The notes under the pieces are model-generated. The model saw only the letters and a program-made list of their open reading frames with translations, had not been told where the DNA came from and made no database searches. This document shows positions 57,485 to 63,805 of a stretch of 64,000 nt of DNA, one piece after another (positions within the stretch are counted from its first letter, which is position 1; each line of letters begins with the position of its first letter). Position numbers and translations under genes: made by a program. Source of the stretch: Aminobacter aganoensis (GTDB lineage: Bacteria > Pseudomonadota > Alphaproteobacteria > Rhizobiales > Rhizobiaceae); the NCBI RefSeq assembly GCF_014206975.1, contig NZ_JACHOU010000003.1, positions 62,001 through 126,000 of the forward strand, written 5' to 3'.

Positions 57485-58057
57485 TCAGCCGCCGACAGCG
57501 GTCGACAGGATCGGCTTGGCAGTGCCGATGCGCTCCCAGCGGCTGCCGTTGCCTTGTGCCTGGCGGGCGAAATAGTCGTAGGGCGTGCTCGACCAGTCGC
57601 GGACAGAACTTGTCAGGTTGTCGAGGATGAGGTCGCCCTCGCTGGTGCGCACCGTCAGCACGGTATGACCCTGGCCGCGATAGCGTGCGACCGTCAGCAG
57701 CAGCGCCGACGCCGGCCAGCCGCGCTTCAGCAATTCGCGCTTCTTCAGGATCGCGAAGTCCTCGCAATCGCCATAGGCGACAGGCACGCGCCAGTCGTCG
57801 CCAACGTCGTTGCGTTCCTTGATGCGCGAGTTGACGGCGCGGTTGACCTGCTTGAGTTCCGACTTGAGGTCGGCCTGCAGCGCCACGACCTTGCTTCCGC
57901 CCGACGTGCTGCACAGGCCGGGTTCACGGCCGCAGAAGGAGGCGAAGGCGGGCGGCGCGAAGGCTTTGCCCCTGGTTTCCATGATGGTTCCCGCCTGGGC
58001 TGCCTGGATTCCGGCAAGCAAAGACGAGAATGCGATCAGCGCAATAAAGCGTTTCAC
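57485..58057 (-). CDS. Bacterial transglutaminase-like cysteine protease (BTLCP), LapG-like
   Basis: Periplasmic cysteine protease of 190 residues. The GTG at 58057, after GGGGA, opens the signal peptide MKRFIALIAFSSLLAGIQAAQA. The catalytic triad is visible as Cys 98 in AYGDCEDFAILKK, His 131 in GQGHTVLTV and Asp 146 in LILDNL. Proteins of this family that sit next to type I secretion genes cut giant adhesins near the N-terminus and release them from the surface (LapG of Pseudomonas). It follows the RHH/PAS, HlyD, ABC and TolC genes on the same strand. No LapD is present nearby. Confidence 0.88.
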   Translation of the reverse strand: MKRFIALIAFSSLLAGIQAAQAGTIMETRGKAFAPPAFASFCGREPGLCSTSGGSKVVALQADLKSELKQVNRAVNSRIKERNDVGDDWRVPVAYGDCEDFAILKKRELLKRGWPASALLLTVARYRGQGHTVLTVRTSEGDLILDNLTSSVRDWSSTPYDYFARQAQGNGSRWERIGTAKPILSTAVGG

Positions 58058-58223
58058 AGCAGATATCCCCGATGTGTGGATTTCAGAATGACGTAAGGTG
58101 ATTAATGAGGGGTTGCTAAAATAAAACGTGGGGAAAGGCGATAGCGGTTCGGCTGACAAATTGTTGCGGAGGTCGTTACAATTTGAACTATTCCGCCTCT
58201 GGATCGACGCTTTTGTCGCCAGC

Positions 58224-58856
58224 CTACCCGTTGACCACGAAGCAAAGCAGCAGTTCTGGCGTCCTTATCGGGGCACGGACGATGTTGAGCTGGCCACGGT
58301 AGCGTCGCTCGGCGGCGCTGATGACGAATCCGCTGGCGATAGGCACGCCGTCATTGGCATCGAGCTTGGCGAAGATGTCCGCGACGTTGAGATCGAGCGA
58401 CAGCCGGAGATCGCGATGCGCGTCCTCGCCGAACCCGACGGGCAATTGCCTCCTGACCAGATGCTGGAAGGCGGGATTGAACGTCAGGATCTTCTTGGTC
58501 GACGACAGCGCGAAAGCAGGCGCCGGGCACGCGCCGAGAATGGCGTTGATCGTGCGCAGCGAGGCGAGCTTGCCGAGTGCCGCACCCTGGTCGGACATCC
58601 AGCGCAGGCAGGCCACGCGGATCGCCGAGGCCAGGTTCGCGGTATCGCCATTGGCCTGTGCGATCACCTCCACCATCTCGCCGATGGTCAGGTGGTTGTG
58701 TTCTGCGAGTTGCCGCAGCGTGTTCCAGAACAGGCGCTCAAGCCGGATGCCGCGGCGGGTGCCCAGGCGGACGACGACGCGAAAATCGGTGGTCAGATCG
58801 TCGGTCGAAAAGACGTGGATACCGTGGCTGTCGGGCTCGGTGGCGCTATCGTTCAC
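58224..58856 (-). CDS. Ribbon-helix-helix protein with PAS-like C-terminal domain
   Basis: A 210-residue soluble protein. Residues 22-90 match the RHH_4 ribbon-helix-helix fold (DFRVVVRLGTRRGIRLERLFWNTLRQLAEHNHLTIGEMVEVI); residues about 100-208 look like a PAS domain (INAILGACPAPAFALSSTKKILTFNPAFQHLV, later QLNIVRAPIRTPELLLCFVV). Its start overlaps the end of the HlyD gene by 11 bp, so it belongs to the secretion transcript. It is probably a DNA-binding regulator with a sensing module; the palindrome at 60145 is a candidate target. No experimental function is known to me. Confidence 0.75.
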   Translation of the reverse strand: MNDSATEPDSHGIHVFSTDDLTTDFRVVVRLGTRRGIRLERLFWNTLRQLAEHNHLTIGEMVEVIAQANGDTANLASAIRVACLRWMSDQGAALGKLASLRTINAILGACPAPAFALSSTKKILTFNPAFQHLVRRQLPVGFGEDAHRDLRLSLDLNVADIFAKLDANDGVPIASGFVISAAERRYRGQLNIVRAPIRTPELLLCFVVNG

Positions 58857-60135
58857 GAAGCGCCTCGTCGCGTGCCTTGTTGATGGGCTTGAGCAGGTAG
58901 TTCAGGATGGTCTTTCGCCCGGTGATGATTTCCACGGTGCTGATCATGCCGGGAATGATCGAGTAGGACTTGCCGTCCCTTTCCAGTGCCGAGCGGTCGG
59001 TCGAGACGCGGACCTGATAGTAGGGTTCGCCGGTGTTCTGGTCGACCAGGCTGTCGGCGGTGATGTTCTGCACCTTGCCGTCGAGGCCGCCGAAGACCGA
59101 GAAATCATAGGCCGAAACCTTGATCAGCGCCTTCTGGTCGGGGCGGATGAAGGCGACGTCGCGCGGCGAGACCCGCGCCTCGACCAGCAAGGTCTCGGAT
59201 GTCGGCACGATGCCGGCGACCACGGCGCCGGGCTGCACGAACGCGCCGAGCGTGTTGACGTCGAGCGTGTTGACGATGCCGTCGACCGGCGAGCGGATGT
59301 CGGTGCGGGCAACGCGGTCGCTGGCGCCGCGGATGGTTTCGTCGACGACCGAAAGCTCGGCCAGCGCCTGGGTCAGCTCGTCCAGGGCTTCCTGCTGCAG
59401 CTGCAGGCCGAACTCGTCGACCTGGAGCTTGGCTTCCACGATCGCGGCCTCGGTCCGCTTGATCGTCTCGTCGGCGAGGTTGAGCTGGCCGCGCATTTCC
59501 GTCTGCTCGCGGTCGACGCGGATCTGCTCGGTCTTGGCCATCAGGTTGCGCTTGACCATGGATGTGACCAGGGCTGCCTCGCGGTCGCTGACCTGCAGGC
59601 TTTCCGTCAGCCTGGTCACGTTGACCTTGGCCTCGTTGAGTTCCTTTTCGCGCTGGTCGAGCCGCGATTTCAGCACATTGAGCTTGGTGTCGAAATTCTG
59701 CCGGCGCGCCACCAAGAGCTTCTGCTCGTTCTCGCAGATCTCGGGCGCGGTCTGCATCAGGTTTTCAGGGCAGGCCAGCGGTTCGCCGATCCGGCCTTCC
59801 TGTTCCTGCTTGAGGCGGGCGATGCGCGCGCCGAGCGTGCGCGCCTTGGCCTGCTGTTCGCCCAGGCTGGAGGTGCTGACGGTGTTGTCGAGCCGGACGA
59901 TGAGGTCGTTCTTCTTGACCACCTGGCCGACCTTGACGGCGATTTCCTGGACCACGCCGGCCTCGCTCGCCTGCACGATCTGGGTCTTCGATGCCGGGAT
60001 GACCTTGCCTTCGCCGCGTGCGATCTCGTCGACCTCGGCAAACGAGGCCCAGGCTACGAACGCCACGAACAATGCTGCGATGATCAGCACCGCGGCCGAC
60101 GCGAAAAATGGCGGTCTGTCTTCTCTGGCTATCAT
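58846..60135 (-). CDS. Type I secretion membrane fusion protein, HlyD/LapC-like
   Basis: Adaptor of 429 residues joining the ABC transporter to the outer-membrane channel. It has a short cytoplasmic N-terminus, one membrane span (residues 12-32), a lipoyl-like segment (ARGEGKVIPASKTQIVQASEAGVVQEIAVKVGQVVKKNDLIVRLD), a long periplasmic coiled coil (about 90-265) and the HlyD beta-barrel with TDIRSPVDGIVNTLDVNTLGAFVQPGAVVAGIVP and IIPGMISTVEIITGRKTILNYLLKPI. A perfect 24-bp dyad lies just upstream. It overlaps the RHH/PAS gene. Confidence 0.92.
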   Translation of the reverse strand: MIAREDRPPFFASAAVLIIAALFVAFVAWASFAEVDEIARGEGKVIPASKTQIVQASEAGVVQEIAVKVGQVVKKNDLIVRLDNTVSTSSLGEQQAKARTLGARIARLKQEQEGRIGEPLACPENLMQTAPEICENEQKLLVARRQNFDTKLNVLKSRLDQREKELNEAKVNVTRLTESLQVSDREAALVTSMVKRNLMAKTEQIRVDREQTEMRGQLNLADETIKRTEAAIVEAKLQVDEFGLQLQQEALDELTQALAELSVVDETIRGASDRVARTDIRSPVDGIVNTLDVNTLGAFVQPGAVVAGIVPTSETLLVEARVSPRDVAFIRPDQKALIKVSAYDFSVFGGLDGKVQNITADSLVDQNTGEPYYQVRVSTDRSALERDGKSYSIIPGMISTVEIITGRKTILNYLLKPINKARDEALRER

Positions 60136-60144
60136 GATGCCCCG

Positions 60145-60168
60145 TTATATTGAACGTGTTCAATATAA
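60145..60168. promoter_or_regulatory. Perfect AT-rich palindrome before the HlyD gene
   Basis: Arms of 11 bp (TTATATTGAAC and its exact complement) around GT, 24 bp in all, in a 56-bp gap inside the secretion operon. The low GC and full symmetry mark it as a protein-binding site, TetR- or RHH-like in form, or less likely an mRNA processing hairpin. It ends 9 bp from the HlyD start codon. Confidence 0.75.
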
Positions 60169-60191
60169 TCATCCTGTCAAGCGGACTGCCT

Positions 60192-62327
60192 TCAGCTATT
60201 TGGCTTCTGCAGTGCCTGAATGACTTTTTCCTTGGGACCATCCGCAACTATACGGCCCTGTTCGACGACGATGAGGCGGTCGACGATTTCGAGCATACTG
60301 TAGCGGTGGGTCGATATGATCAGCGTGGTCTTGTCGTTGAACGCCGTCTTCAGCTGCCGTATCAGCTGGCGCTCGGACGCCAGGTCCATCGAGCCGGACG
60401 GTTCGTCGAGGAACACGATCTTGGGTTTCGTCATCAGCAGCCGGGCGATCGCCACGGCCTGCCTCTGGCCGCCCGACAGGTTGGTGCCGCGCTCCCCGAC
60501 ATTCATGTCGTAGCCGCGCGGATGGCGCGAGACGAACTCGTCGACGCCGGCCAGCTTTGCCGCGTCGATGATCTCTTCGTCGGTGGCCTCTGGCCGCGCC
60601 ATCAAGAGGTTTTCCTTGATCGTGCCGGAAAACAGGTCGCCGGCCTGGGCGACGATGCCGACGGCGGCGCGTACCTCGGAAGGGTGGTACTGGCGGATGT
60701 CGATGCCGTCGAGCAGCAACTCGCCGGTCGTCGGCAGGTAGAGCCGGCCGACGAGCCGCCCGAACGTCGTCTTGCCGGAGCCGATGCGCCCGATGATGCC
60801 GACGCGCTCGCCCGGATTGATCGTCAGGTTCACCCCGGTCAGCACTTCGGTCTCGGTACCGGGATAGACGAAGCCGACATTGCGCATCGTCAGCGCGCCG
60901 ACCCGGATCGGACGGTTGACGAAGCCGACGGTGTCGGGCCGGTCTTCCGGCTGCTGCATGATGGTGTTCAGCACTTTCAGCGACAGCGTTGCCTGGCGGA
61001 AGCGCGATAGCGTCATGGCCAGCTGGCCGAGCGGTGCCACAGCGCGGCCCGACAGCATCACCGCCGCGATGATGGCGCCTGTCGAGATGGCGCCGCTGTC
61101 GAAGGCGTAGGCGCCAGCCACCACCAGTGCCACGGTCACCATCTGCTGGATGAATTGCGTCATGTTGGCCGCGGCCGCCGACAGCTCCTTGATCTTTTCG
61201 GAGGTGTTGGCGGCATTCTTGGAGTGCTCGCGCCACTTGCGCAGCAGGTAGGCTTCGGCGCGCAGCGACTTGATCGTCTCGATCGTCGAGATCGATTCGA
61301 CCAGCAGCGACTGGCGCTGCGACGCCTCGTTCAGCGATGCCGCGACCCGCTTGCCGATGCGCTGCTGCGCCACCAGCCCGATGACGACGGCCGCGATGAA
61401 GGCGATGATCGGAATGACCACCAGCCAGCTTGCCACGGCGTAGATCACCAGCAGGAAGACGAAGACGAAGGCGGTGTCGATGAAGGTGCTGACCGTGTTG
61501 GAGGTGAAGAACTCGCGCACGAACTCATACTGCGTCACCCGGTTGGCATACTCGCCGGTCGAGGCGGGGCGCGAGCTGAGCGAGGTGTTCAGCACCTTCT
61601 CGAACAGCATGTAGGAGATGCGCAGGTCGGCCTTGCGTCCGGCATGGTCGATGAGCGCGGCGCGCGCCGTCTTCAGCAGCAGGTCGAACAGGATGGCGGT
61701 TGCCACGCCGATCGCCAGCACCCACAGCGACGAGATCGACTTGTTGGGCAGGATGCGGTCGTAGACGTTCATCGTGAAGATGGGCGAGGCGATCGCCAGC
61801 AGGTTGATGAAGATCGCCGCCAGCGCCACGCGCGAATAGGACCGCCAGAACGCGCCCAGCGTGCCGTACAGCCAGTGCGGCCGCTCGATCTTCGCCGCGG
61901 TGCCGACGGTCATGTCCTCGGCGGCATTTGCATAGGTGATGGAGAAGCCGACGCCGCCGGTGATCGGCACGCCCATCAGTTCGGCGCGCGAGATCGAGGT
62001 GCGGCCATCCTCCTGCGGTCCCGTCAGGAACTCCGCGCCATCCCTCTGCTCCGCCAGGATGGCTATGGGCAGCCGGTTGGGCCGGAAGACGATGGCCGGC
62101 AGGTCGAAGCGGCCGCGCACGAAATCGCGATGCTCGAACTCTTGCGTTTCCAGGCCGATGCGCTCGGCCAGGTGGCGGATTTCCTGAACTTCGATCCTGG
62201 TCGCCGAGATAGGCACGCCGGAAAACAGCACGGTTTCGGCGCTGGGGCGGCCGAGATAGGCAGCCACCGCCGAAAAACAGGATTTGAACGCCTCGACCGG
62301 AGTCTGGATATGCGTCTGCTGGTTCAT
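60192..62327 (-). CDS. Type I secretion ABC transporter with C39-like domain, LapB-like
   Basis: Inner-membrane exporter of 711 residues. The N-terminal 130 residues form a degenerate peptidase-C39-like domain without the catalytic Cys motif, as in RTX-adhesin exporters. The six-helix membrane domain (about 150-430) follows, with SPIFTMNVYDRILPNKSISSLW and SRPASTGEYANRVTQYEFVREFFTS, the LapB-type sequence. The ATPase has Walker A GRIGSGKTTFGR near residue 520, signature LSGGQRQAVAIAR and Walker B IVFLDEPSGSMD. It works with the flanking TolC and HlyD genes; the substrate is probably a large adhesin. Confidence 0.92.
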   Translation of the reverse strand: MNQQTHIQTPVEAFKSCFSAVAAYLGRPSAETVLFSGVPISATRIEVQEIRHLAERIGLETQEFEHRDFVRGRFDLPAIVFRPNRLPIAILAEQRDGAEFLTGPQEDGRTSISRAELMGVPITGGVGFSITYANAAEDMTVGTAAKIERPHWLYGTLGAFWRSYSRVALAAIFINLLAIASPIFTMNVYDRILPNKSISSLWVLAIGVATAILFDLLLKTARAALIDHAGRKADLRISYMLFEKVLNTSLSSRPASTGEYANRVTQYEFVREFFTSNTVSTFIDTAFVFVFLLVIYAVASWLVVIPIIAFIAAVVIGLVAQQRIGKRVAASLNEASQRQSLLVESISTIETIKSLRAEAYLLRKWREHSKNAANTSEKIKELSAAAANMTQFIQQMVTVALVVAGAYAFDSGAISTGAIIAAVMLSGRAVAPLGQLAMTLSRFRQATLSLKVLNTIMQQPEDRPDTVGFVNRPIRVGALTMRNVGFVYPGTETEVLTGVNLTINPGERVGIIGRIGSGKTTFGRLVGRLYLPTTGELLLDGIDIRQYHPSEVRAAVGIVAQAGDLFSGTIKENLLMARPEATDEEIIDAAKLAGVDEFVSRHPRGYDMNVGERGTNLSGGQRQAVAIARLLMTKPKIVFLDEPSGSMDLASERQLIRQLKTAFNDKTTLIISTHRYSMLEIVDRLIVVEQGRIVADGPKEKVIQALQKPNS

Positions 62328-62359
62328 GACGGACGGGGGCTGCCGTCAGGCAGACACCC

Positions 62360-63805
62360 CTACTTCTTTCTGACCGGAGCGAGCAGGTCGAATGGCATGT
62401 CGTTGACCTGCTCCGACGGCGTCCGCGCATAGGTCTCGGTGTCGGCGGTCGCCGGCACGTTGAACTCGCTGCGGGCGTAGGCGGCAGCCTGCTTGGCCGG
62501 TGCGATGTTCATGGTCTTCAGCAACTGGCCCGTCGCGGCCAACAGCCGGTATTCGGCGAACAGCGACGCGAATGATGCGGTGTTTGCCAGCGTCTCGGTG
62601 TTGAAGCGCGTGTTCTGCGCGTCGAGCACGTCGAGAAGCGAACGCTGGCCGACCTTGAATTGCTCGCGATACGAGGTCACCAGCCTGTCATTGGCGACGG
62701 CCTGCTGGCGCAGCGTCTTGGCGAGGTCAGCCTGGCGGAAGCGGCGATCCCAGGAGATGCGCACGGCTTCTTCGATCTCGCGCTGCACCTGGTGCATGGC
62801 AAGGCGCTGCTCGCTGACGCGGCGGATCTGTTCCTGCTCGTTGGCCTTGTCGATGCCGCCGCGATAGAGGTTCCAGCGCAGCACCAGGCGGGCCTGCAGG
62901 TCGTTGGTCTCGTCGGCCGAGCCGTCGATGTCGTTGCCGACGCGGGCGCGGCCTTCAGCCACCACTTCCGGGCCGTACTTGGCGCGCGCTGCATCGACCA
63001 GCGACGCCGCGGCGTCGATGTCGCTGCTGGCCATGTGGATGCGCGGATTGTTGCGGCGGGCAAGGCCGATCGCATCGTCGAGCGAGCGCGGCAGGGCCTT
63101 GGCCACCGAACCGGGCTTGGACGGGCTGACCAGCGGTTTGCCGACGGTCTTGAAGAAGCGGATCTTGGAGGCTTCCAGCTCTTCGGACGCCTCCTGCACG
63201 CGCGCCTTGGCGGCGAACAGGCGTTCTTCGGCCTGCTGGCGGTCGGCGTCGGTCAGGGCGCCGCCCTGGATGCCTTCGCGAATGTCGCCGAGGATCGACT
63301 GGTGGAAGCCGAGATTGCGCTTGGCTTCGCCCACGATCTGGGCCTGGAGCACGTATTCGAGATAATCCTGGACGACCGAAAGGCCGATGAATTCGGAGCG
63401 TTCGAGCACGCGAAAGGACGCGCCGTCGACGCGCGAGGCCTGCCGGGTGAGCTCGGCGCGGCGGGCGCCGTTGTCGAACAGCTTCTGGGTGACGACGACG
63501 CCGGCTTCAGACGGATAGAGCGCATCGTCTTCGATCGACAGGGCGCGGCGCGAGGGATTGTCGAGCCGGCGTACGCCGGTCGAGGCTTCCAGGTCCACGC
63601 TGGGGAGGTAGAGACCCTTTGCCTGCCGCAGTTCGAACTCGATCGCTTCGCGGTTCTCGATGGCCTGGCCGATCTCGGGATTGGATTCGACGGCCACCGC
63701 CATCGCTTCCTTCAGCGACAGCGCGCTTGCTCCGTTGCCCGACAGCATGGTCGCCGCCAACAACACCGCCAGCCGCTGCGCCAGGCGCCCAAAATTCAAC
63801 TGCAT
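62360..63805 (-). CDS. Type I secretion outer-membrane channel, TolC/LapE-like
   Basis: TolC-family protein of 481 residues. The signal peptide is MQLNFGRLAQRLAVLLAATMLSGNGASA. Two OEP repeats follow: SLKEAMAVAVESNPEIGQAIENREAIEFELRQAKGLYLPSVDLEAS and SLDDAIGLARRNNPRIHMASSDIDAAASLVDAARAKYGPEVVAEG, with long coiled-coil helices and YREQFKVGQRSLLDVLDAQNTRFNTE in the second. The agglutination-type arrangement with LapB/LapC-like partners suits adhesin export. GGGGAGAG precedes the ATG at 63805. It is the first gene of the secretion operon. Confidence 0.92.
   Translation of the reverse strand: MQLNFGRLAQRLAVLLAATMLSGNGASALSLKEAMAVAVESNPEIGQAIENREAIEFELRQAKGLYLPSVDLEASTGVRRLDNPSRRALSIEDDALYPSEAGVVVTQKLFDNGARRAELTRQASRVDGASFRVLERSEFIGLSVVQDYLEYVLQAQIVGEAKRNLGFHQSILGDIREGIQGGALTDADRQQAEERLFAAKARVQEASEELEASKIRFFKTVGKPLVSPSKPGSVAKALPRSLDDAIGLARRNNPRIHMASSDIDAAASLVDAARAKYGPEVVAEGRARVGNDIDGSADETNDLQARLVLRWNLYRGGIDKANEQEQIRRVSEQRLAMHQVQREIEEAVRISWDRRFRQADLAKTLRQQAVANDRLVTSYREQFKVGQRSLLDVLDAQNTRFNTETLANTASFASLFAEYRLLAATGQLLKTMNIAPAKQAAAYARSEFNVPATADTETYARTPSEQVNDMPFDLLAPVRKK

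Follow-up and report, generated by a model that had tools for sequence, protein, structure and literature searches.

The 64,000-nucleotide stretch of DNA analysed here (the window, C3:62001-126000 of a 5.76-Mb draft genome of Aminobacter aganoensis) carries a type I secretion system (T1SS) that we read as one half, the exporter, of a Lap-like adhesin system of the Rhizobiaceae. According to this reading, which we consider evenly balanced between right and wrong, the adhesin would be released by BTLCP2, a protease of the BTLCP family encoded just beyond the window, no orthologue of the cyclic di-GMP (c-di-GMP) receptor LapD would take part, and RHH-PAS, a protein with a ribbon-helix-helix (RHH) and a PAS-like part, would control transcription through palindromes. 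The evidence lies in the genes themselves, in their co-occurrence across the family, in the lack of LapD_MoxY_N and HD-GYP matches in the genome, and in a pair of palindromes upstream of an unlinked giant adhesin gene, a pair that is new in this analysis.

Profile searches of this genome (G000; other genomes bear G, loci L and contigs C numbers) depend on a draft assembly in 52 contigs, whose completeness the tool puts at 100. Comparisons were made with 121 genomes of the family drawn by the tool, in which counts are not corrected for descent, with 80 named loci kept from the 82 that a BTLCP2 scan of named genomes found, and with 10 genomes of the genus (congeners). Papers are cited by PMC number, each for the portion of its text that was available.

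The secretion genes and RHH-PAS

The minus strand of the window encodes a TolC-family outer-membrane channel (62360-63805; Pfam OEP, 125 bits, cut-off 22), an LssB-type ATP-binding cassette (ABC) exporter (60192-62327; TIGR03375, 799 bits, cut-off 693) and a HlyD-type adaptor (58846-60135; TIGR01843, 369.5 bits, cut-off 208.65), so that the exporter, adaptor and channel that characterize the Lap systems are all present, the channel scoring just under the cut-off of the TolC model TIGR01844 (221.8 bits, cut-off 225). Each of the three shares 98-99% identity with its counterpart in Aminobacter niigataensis (L011). A sequence-only reading of the window had named TolC, ABC exporter, HlyD, RHH and BTLCP genes, and profiles confirmed all of them; the C39-like N-terminal domain that it placed on the exporter, which is of the LssB type, is weak (Pfam Peptidase_C39, E = 0.17).

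The RHH-PAS gene (58224-58856, minus strand), whose product is our candidate regulator of the unlinked adhesin gene, has a listed GTG start that gives it an 11-bp overlap with the end of hlyD. Its RHH part is recognized by Pfam (RHH_4, 54.2 bits, cut-off 25), as the sequence-only reading had it, whereas the PAS domain has no Pfam match and is visible through structure: an AlphaFold2 (AF2) model (mean predicted local distance difference test score, pLDDT, 82) consists of an RHH-like part, a 35-residue helix and a PAS-like part, and the top 50 Foldseek matches are mostly PAS proteins (probability about 1.0; best E 1.5e-3, none at or below 0.001). That this protein is co-encoded with the exporter, also noted earlier, proved to be a conserved feature, since its gene occurs in all 14 family genomes that have the adhesin and lies beside HlyD on the same strand in 77/77 of those among the 80 loci that hold both.

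An unlinked giant adhesin with a conserved N-terminal module

The locus had been described as lacking an adhesin, but the genome does contain one, unlinked, on contig C10 (C10:25545-37133; 3,862 residues from the ATG, in a frame of 3,878 codons). A search of the genome for the module of about 90 residues found at the start of such giant repeat proteins gave one match, at C10:25749, and the same module is encoded nearby in 74 of the 80 named loci. Behind it, the A. aganoensis protein carries DUF5801/T1SS-143 repeats, a vWA domain, RTX repeats and a T1SS C-terminal signal (TIGR03661, 49.2 bits, cut-off 17.6), the composition of a giant T1SS adhesin of the Lap kind. Among the other six loci, L011 and L015 have none in the stretch examined, three end at most about 310 bp from BTLCP2, and L087 has none. 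Where the gene order is that of Mesorhizobium (72 loci), the sequence breaks off within 10 kb on the adhesin side in 44 and on the other side in 7, a bias that is expected if long repeats break assemblies. The genes that follow the A. aganoensis adhesin are relatives of those in the same place in Mesorhizobium (a small protein, a lytic-transglycosylase-like and a periplasmic-binding-type gene, named by reading); the adhesin block therefore appears to have been linked once, as one ancestral block, and to have been split in A. aganoensis.

The AF2 model of the module (from L012) is confident for residues 11-90, which form strands, one helix and a hairpin, and mostly disordered at residues 92-111; retention domains have been described as strands, a helix, a cut site and an unstructured segment (PMC13090378). 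The module is conserved, 31/130 positions of the alignment's first row being invariant in 29 sequences. The LapA retention module family (NF033682) had no match in the genome at E <= 1, the BapA prefix models gave matches below their cut-offs (NF033677, 13.9-17.6 bits, cut-off 35, E 0.0025 to 0.02; PF22783, 12.4-14.6 bits, cut-off 27), and Foldseek returned no known fold at E <= 0.001. Nor did we find the TAAG- or PAAG-like BTLCP site that the sequence-only reading had proposed to look for on the adhesin: [TAP]AAG follows the module in 0/67 loci examined (of the 74 with the module; it precedes the module in 8/67) and is absent from the first 330 frame residues of the A. aganoensis adhesin. A different motif, [AS]GG[ND]F, follows the module in 64/67 loci; as a guess, it marks the cut site.

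Co-occurrence of the module, BTLCP2 and RHH-PAS

Within the family sample the module occurs in 14/121 genomes, and BTLCP2 (E <= 1e-30) in 15/121, namely the 14 module genomes plus G116 (Fisher P = 2e-17, with no correction for shared ancestry). The distribution of RHH-PAS is similar: matches that run through the PAS part occur in 15/121 genomes, the 14 module genomes plus G074, and 85 more genomes match the RHH part only, none of them past model position 119 of 206. The three genes are also close to each other, with the module at most 7 kb from BTLCP2 in 12/14 genomes (exceptions G000, G057) and at most 6 kb from RHH-PAS in 13/14 (exception G000). One genome, G040 (C1 and C4; L169), has two modules with an RHH-PAS gene near each, and a single BTLCP2. 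In G074, which has no adhesin module, the RHH-PAS gene (contig C3, L165:5904-6650) lies beside genes that look, by reading, like polysaccharide-synthesis genes; from this context, regulators of this family may have other surface products under their control as well.

A palindrome pair upstream of the adhesin gene

Two copies of the palindrome CATAT-N6-ATATG, about 53 bp apart, precede the adhesin start (near -91 and -144), a spacing that would place both on one face of the DNA. We scanned 36 non-redundant upstream regions from 79 collected (two of which repeat sequence already in the set), counting a proximal site at a score of at least 8/10 and a pair where a distal site of at least 7 stood at a spacing of 51 to 55. 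The proximal site was present in 32/36 and the pair in 28/36 of the adhesin upstream regions, as compared with a mean of 1.5 proximal sites (maximum 6) and 0.04 pairs (maximum 1) in 200 dinucleotide shuffles, a test that is not independent because the palindrome was defined on the set in which it was counted. In control regions upstream of the other genes the proximal site occurred in 1/26 for TolC, 0/27 for HlyD and 0/27 for RHH, with no pair in any, and the 64-kb window contains no site at 9 or above and four at 8. The A. aganoensis adhesin has both sites (8/10 at -91, 9/10 at -146). The nearest approach to a hold-out set, seven loci of other genera in the family, has the proximal site at 8/10 or better in 6/7 and the pair in 5/7. 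No word of 8, 10 or 12 bases was common to at least 20 TolC and at least 20 BTLCP2 upstream regions.

In 22 of the 32 regions with a proximal site, the element TTGCA begins 34 bp after the start of that site. If TTGCA is the -35 box, the proximal site would be centred near -62. A position near -62 is a classical activator place.

BTLCP2 is the likely adhesin protease

The Peptidase_C93 profile exceeded its cut-off at eight places in the genome (on C3, C4, C6, C7 and C9; L001-L008). Six of these BTLCP genes, among them the nearest paralogue of BTLCP1 (L006), lie outside the locus, with no T1SS gene nearby in the short stretches examined. The other two, BTLCP1 in the window and BTLCP2 122 bp past its end (C3:126122-127057, minus strand), both have a C-H-D triad. 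BTLCP2 is the more LapG-like, scoring highest of the eight with the NCBIfam LapG model (82.7 bits vs 23.5-54.3) and matching Pseudomonas fluorescens LapG (4u65) at 9.9e-15, as against 0.0084 for BTLCP1. LapG and BTLCP2 have in common the segment leading up to GDCED and the P[VL]YSF strand, both of which are absent from the other seven BTLCPs. Cross-linkers at V205 and Y206 of LapG report LapD binding (PMC4359373), and through an inferred numbering offset these two residues would fall in PVYSF.

BTLCP1 (57485-58057, minus strand; longest frame 57485-58159; Peptidase_C93, 156 bits, cut-off 27) was the protease of the sequence-only reading, and its triad is intact as stated there: C132/H165/D180 in the longest frame or, should translation start from the GTG at codon 35 (window position 58057), where a signal-peptide-like stretch begins, C98/H131/D146. 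An alternative to BTLCP2 is that this protein cuts the adhesin. It lies 167 bp past the RHH gene, with which it shares a strand, and an RHH gene is near it in 4/10 congeners; the other six have none in the approximately 1.5 kb examined, and its constant neighbour, in 10/10, is an acetyltransferase gene. On account of this context BTLCP1 is probably not the adhesin protease and probably stands outside the adhesin system. In the seven congeners with the module, moreover, the module is on another contig than BTLCP1 or at least 280 kb away, and BTLCP2 tracks the module in 14/14 genomes. We accordingly rejected BTLCP1 as the adhesin protease, a role that we regard as highly improbable. A count of BTLCP1 in 69 of the 80 loci consisted mostly of cross-matching to BTLCP2 and was not used. 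In G128, which has no module match, RHH and HlyD still lie beside BTLCP1 (L154).

Searches for LapD and other c-di-GMP components

LapD_MoxY_N (PF16448) had no match in the genome at E <= 1, and the genome search for LapD that the earlier reading had called for thus found no LapD domain. In the family sample the domain matched in 10/121 genomes at E <= 0.001; the eight loci examined of these ten all encode histidine kinases, and the matches were rejected as LapD. All 15 EAL matches of the A. aganoensis genome were read and none is LapD-like. Four of these proteins carry a sizeable periplasmic domain, with no LapD_MoxY_N and no HAMP by Pfam; all four retain the EAL motif, wholly or almost, and one only has a degenerate GGDEF. 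The EAL frames read contain no GWxQ loop, and HD-GYP (PF13487) had no match in the genome at E <= 0.001. No EAL match lies near any of the 80 loci, where five EAL queries from this genome gave GGDEF-region matches only, in 10 loci.

The sequence-only reading had also reported no GGDEF protein nearby, but one is encoded about 2 kb past the window end (C3:128005-128952, plus strand, opposite to BTLCP2), with a GGEEF motif and an RxxD five residues before it. Of the 30 named loci above 20 kb in length, 16 have a GGDEF match, for the most part at 26-37% identity. Between BTLCP2 and this gene, on the strand of the latter, lies a gene for a 241-aa protein with an N-terminal hydrophobic stretch and no Pfam family (the pair, C3:127283-128952, L009:8283-9952), and several Mesorhizobium loci also have relatives of the pair close to the adhesin block. 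Beyond the GGDEF gene is a gene for a 445-aa Gly-/Ala-rich protein (C3:129040-130377, L009:10040-11377) with no Pfam or NCBIfam match and with relatives in L011, L013 and L015.

Comparison with known systems

The locus resembles the Lap system of P. fluorescens (LapA, LapBCE, LapG, LapD) in its LssB-type T1SS with HlyD and TolC, its giant adhesin with repeats, vWA domain, RTX repeats, folded N-terminal module and T1SS C-terminus, and its LapG-like BTLCP with GDCED and P[VL]YSF. It differs in that no LapD domain was found, the module falls outside the LapA retention family, [TAP]AAG does not follow the module and BTLCP2 scores under the LapG cut-off, and because of these four differences we do not class it as a Lap system, although it probably works like one. 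Its constant RHH-PAS partner and, in A. aganoensis, the unlinked adhesin gene set it further apart.

The Dvh system of Desulfovibrio (DvhA, DvhG, DvhD; PMC13090378) likewise has no LapD homologue and combines a BTLCP that has a long N-terminal stretch with a neighbouring T1SS and repeat adhesin; in it the HD-GYP protein DvhD, a distinct receptor in place of LapD, holds DvhG. DvhG cuts [T/A/P]AAG (PMC13090378), a motif absent after our module, and since the genome has no HD-GYP match it has no DvhD orthologue. HvyA of Caulobacter is an alphaproteobacterial BTLCP governed by synthesis and turnover, and a dependence on LapD is not reported in the available text; it restrains the capsule and sits in a capsule export locus, with no adhesin or T1SS described for it there (PMC4241560). 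Giant repeat adhesins of the DDxP type, accompanied by T1SS and BTLCP genes, are described in Mesorhizobium (PMC7730722), and DDxP motifs are visible by reading in the repeats here too; LapD-like genes are reported in some of those clusters, whereas none was found beside the 80 loci. To BapA-type adhesins the module gives weak prefix matches, all below the family cut-off. In the available portions of the literature on LapG and BTLCP proteases and on RHH-PAS proteins with type I secretion we found no description of this locus, and the part of PMC5588039 that was available mentions neither LapG nor LapD.

Discussion

We propose that the T1SS of the window exports the giant adhesin encoded on C10, whose N-terminal beta/helix module would stay in the periplasm and hold the adhesin in the TolC channel until BTLCP2, and not BTLCP1, cuts behind the module and frees it. 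The supply of adhesin would be set at least partly by transcription, with RHH-PAS binding both CATAT-N6-ATATG palindromes upstream of the conserved TTGCA element and switching the adhesin gene in response to a signal perceived by the PAS part. Because the RHH-PAS gene is conserved and the palindromes are paired, transcriptional control is likely as one layer. The sequence-only reading had suggested control through transcription rather than LapD; the palindrome pair supports the transcriptional half of that suggestion, and the replacement of a receptor stays conjectural. In a stronger form, which we hold tentatively and regard as doubtful, the c-di-GMP receptor would have been replaced as the control point by a PAS-sensing RHH regulator that is made together with the exporter and acts on two helically phased palindromes, while the LapG-like protease would release adhesin steadily, like a clock, and at a shifted cut site, the [AS]GG[ND]F region taking the place of [TAP]AAG. 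Were this so, the level of adhesin at the surface would reflect synthesis against steady release.

Several observations weigh against the reading of the locus as the exporter half of a transcriptionally controlled, Lap-like system. None of the eight BTLCPs, including BTLCP2, reached the LapG equivalog cut-off of 320; identity to LapG over the aligned stretch was 24.8-31.0% for all eight (BTLCP2, 29.8) and did not separate them; and in a small unrooted tree LapG did not join BTLCP2 but branched between its group and the remaining seven. Co-occurrence has its exceptions, in that G074 has RHH-PAS and G116 (C2, L168) a BTLCP2 homologue without the module, and the module, present in 7/10 congeners, is absent from G122, G127 and G128. 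As to the promoter, the palindrome was first spotted by eye in the A. aganoensis and one Mesorhizobium promoter, after which a single set served both to define and to count it; the distal site is absent from three named Aminobacter adhesins (L012, L013 and L014), two of which reach only 7/10 at the proximal site; L089 and L141 lack both sites; and the palindromes could be bound by a protein other than RHH-PAS. Some Mesorhizobium T1SS clusters hold BTLCP- and LapD-like genes (PMC7730722), and LapD may for this reason exist in other strains. Finally, a GGDEF gene lies near BTLCP2 in the A. aganoensis genome, and the strand that docks LapD in LapG seems to be kept in BTLCP2, which hints at a receptor.

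These last two points lead to an explanation on canonical lines, in which BTLCP2 would be held by a c-di-GMP-binding membrane protein without LapD_MoxY_N, fed by the nearby GGDEF protein with its GGEEF and RxxD site, and RHH-PAS would only tune expression. Such a receptor, to which the retained P[VL]YSF strand leaves room, would have candidates among the four EAL proteins with a sizeable periplasmic domain, and DvhD shows that non-homologous receptors exist (PMC13090378). Yet the genome has no LapD_MoxY_N match even at E <= 1 and no HD-GYP match, the GWxQ loop is missing from the EAL frames read, the EAL motif is largely retained in the four proteins with a periplasmic domain, of which a single one has a degenerate GGDEF, and no EAL match lies near any of the 80 loci; we consider this explanation possible, if on balance unlikely. 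A simpler one dispenses with regulated retention altogether: BTLCP2 would always cut, and the adhesin would be a matrix protein secreted in two steps and released. The searches found no regulator of protease activity, and the module lies outside the LapA retention family, as such a scheme would have it, but the module is conserved and its model shows a folded domain with a disordered linker behind it, in the manner of retention domains (PMC13090378), and this makes plain two-step secretion quite improbable in our view.

In the Lap circuits described in the papers cited, c-di-GMP gates surface attachment through LapD, for which DvhD is a molecularly distinct substitute (PMC13090378, 2026), and much less is known outside the Gammaproteobacteria, according to the introduction of that paper. 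The module, protease and regulator reported here travel together through a soil- and plant-associated family whose tested genomes gave no LapD match, and the operator-like sequences before the adhesin gene offer another route of control that lends itself to direct tests. The system may bear on how rhizobia attach to, and leave, surfaces such as roots.

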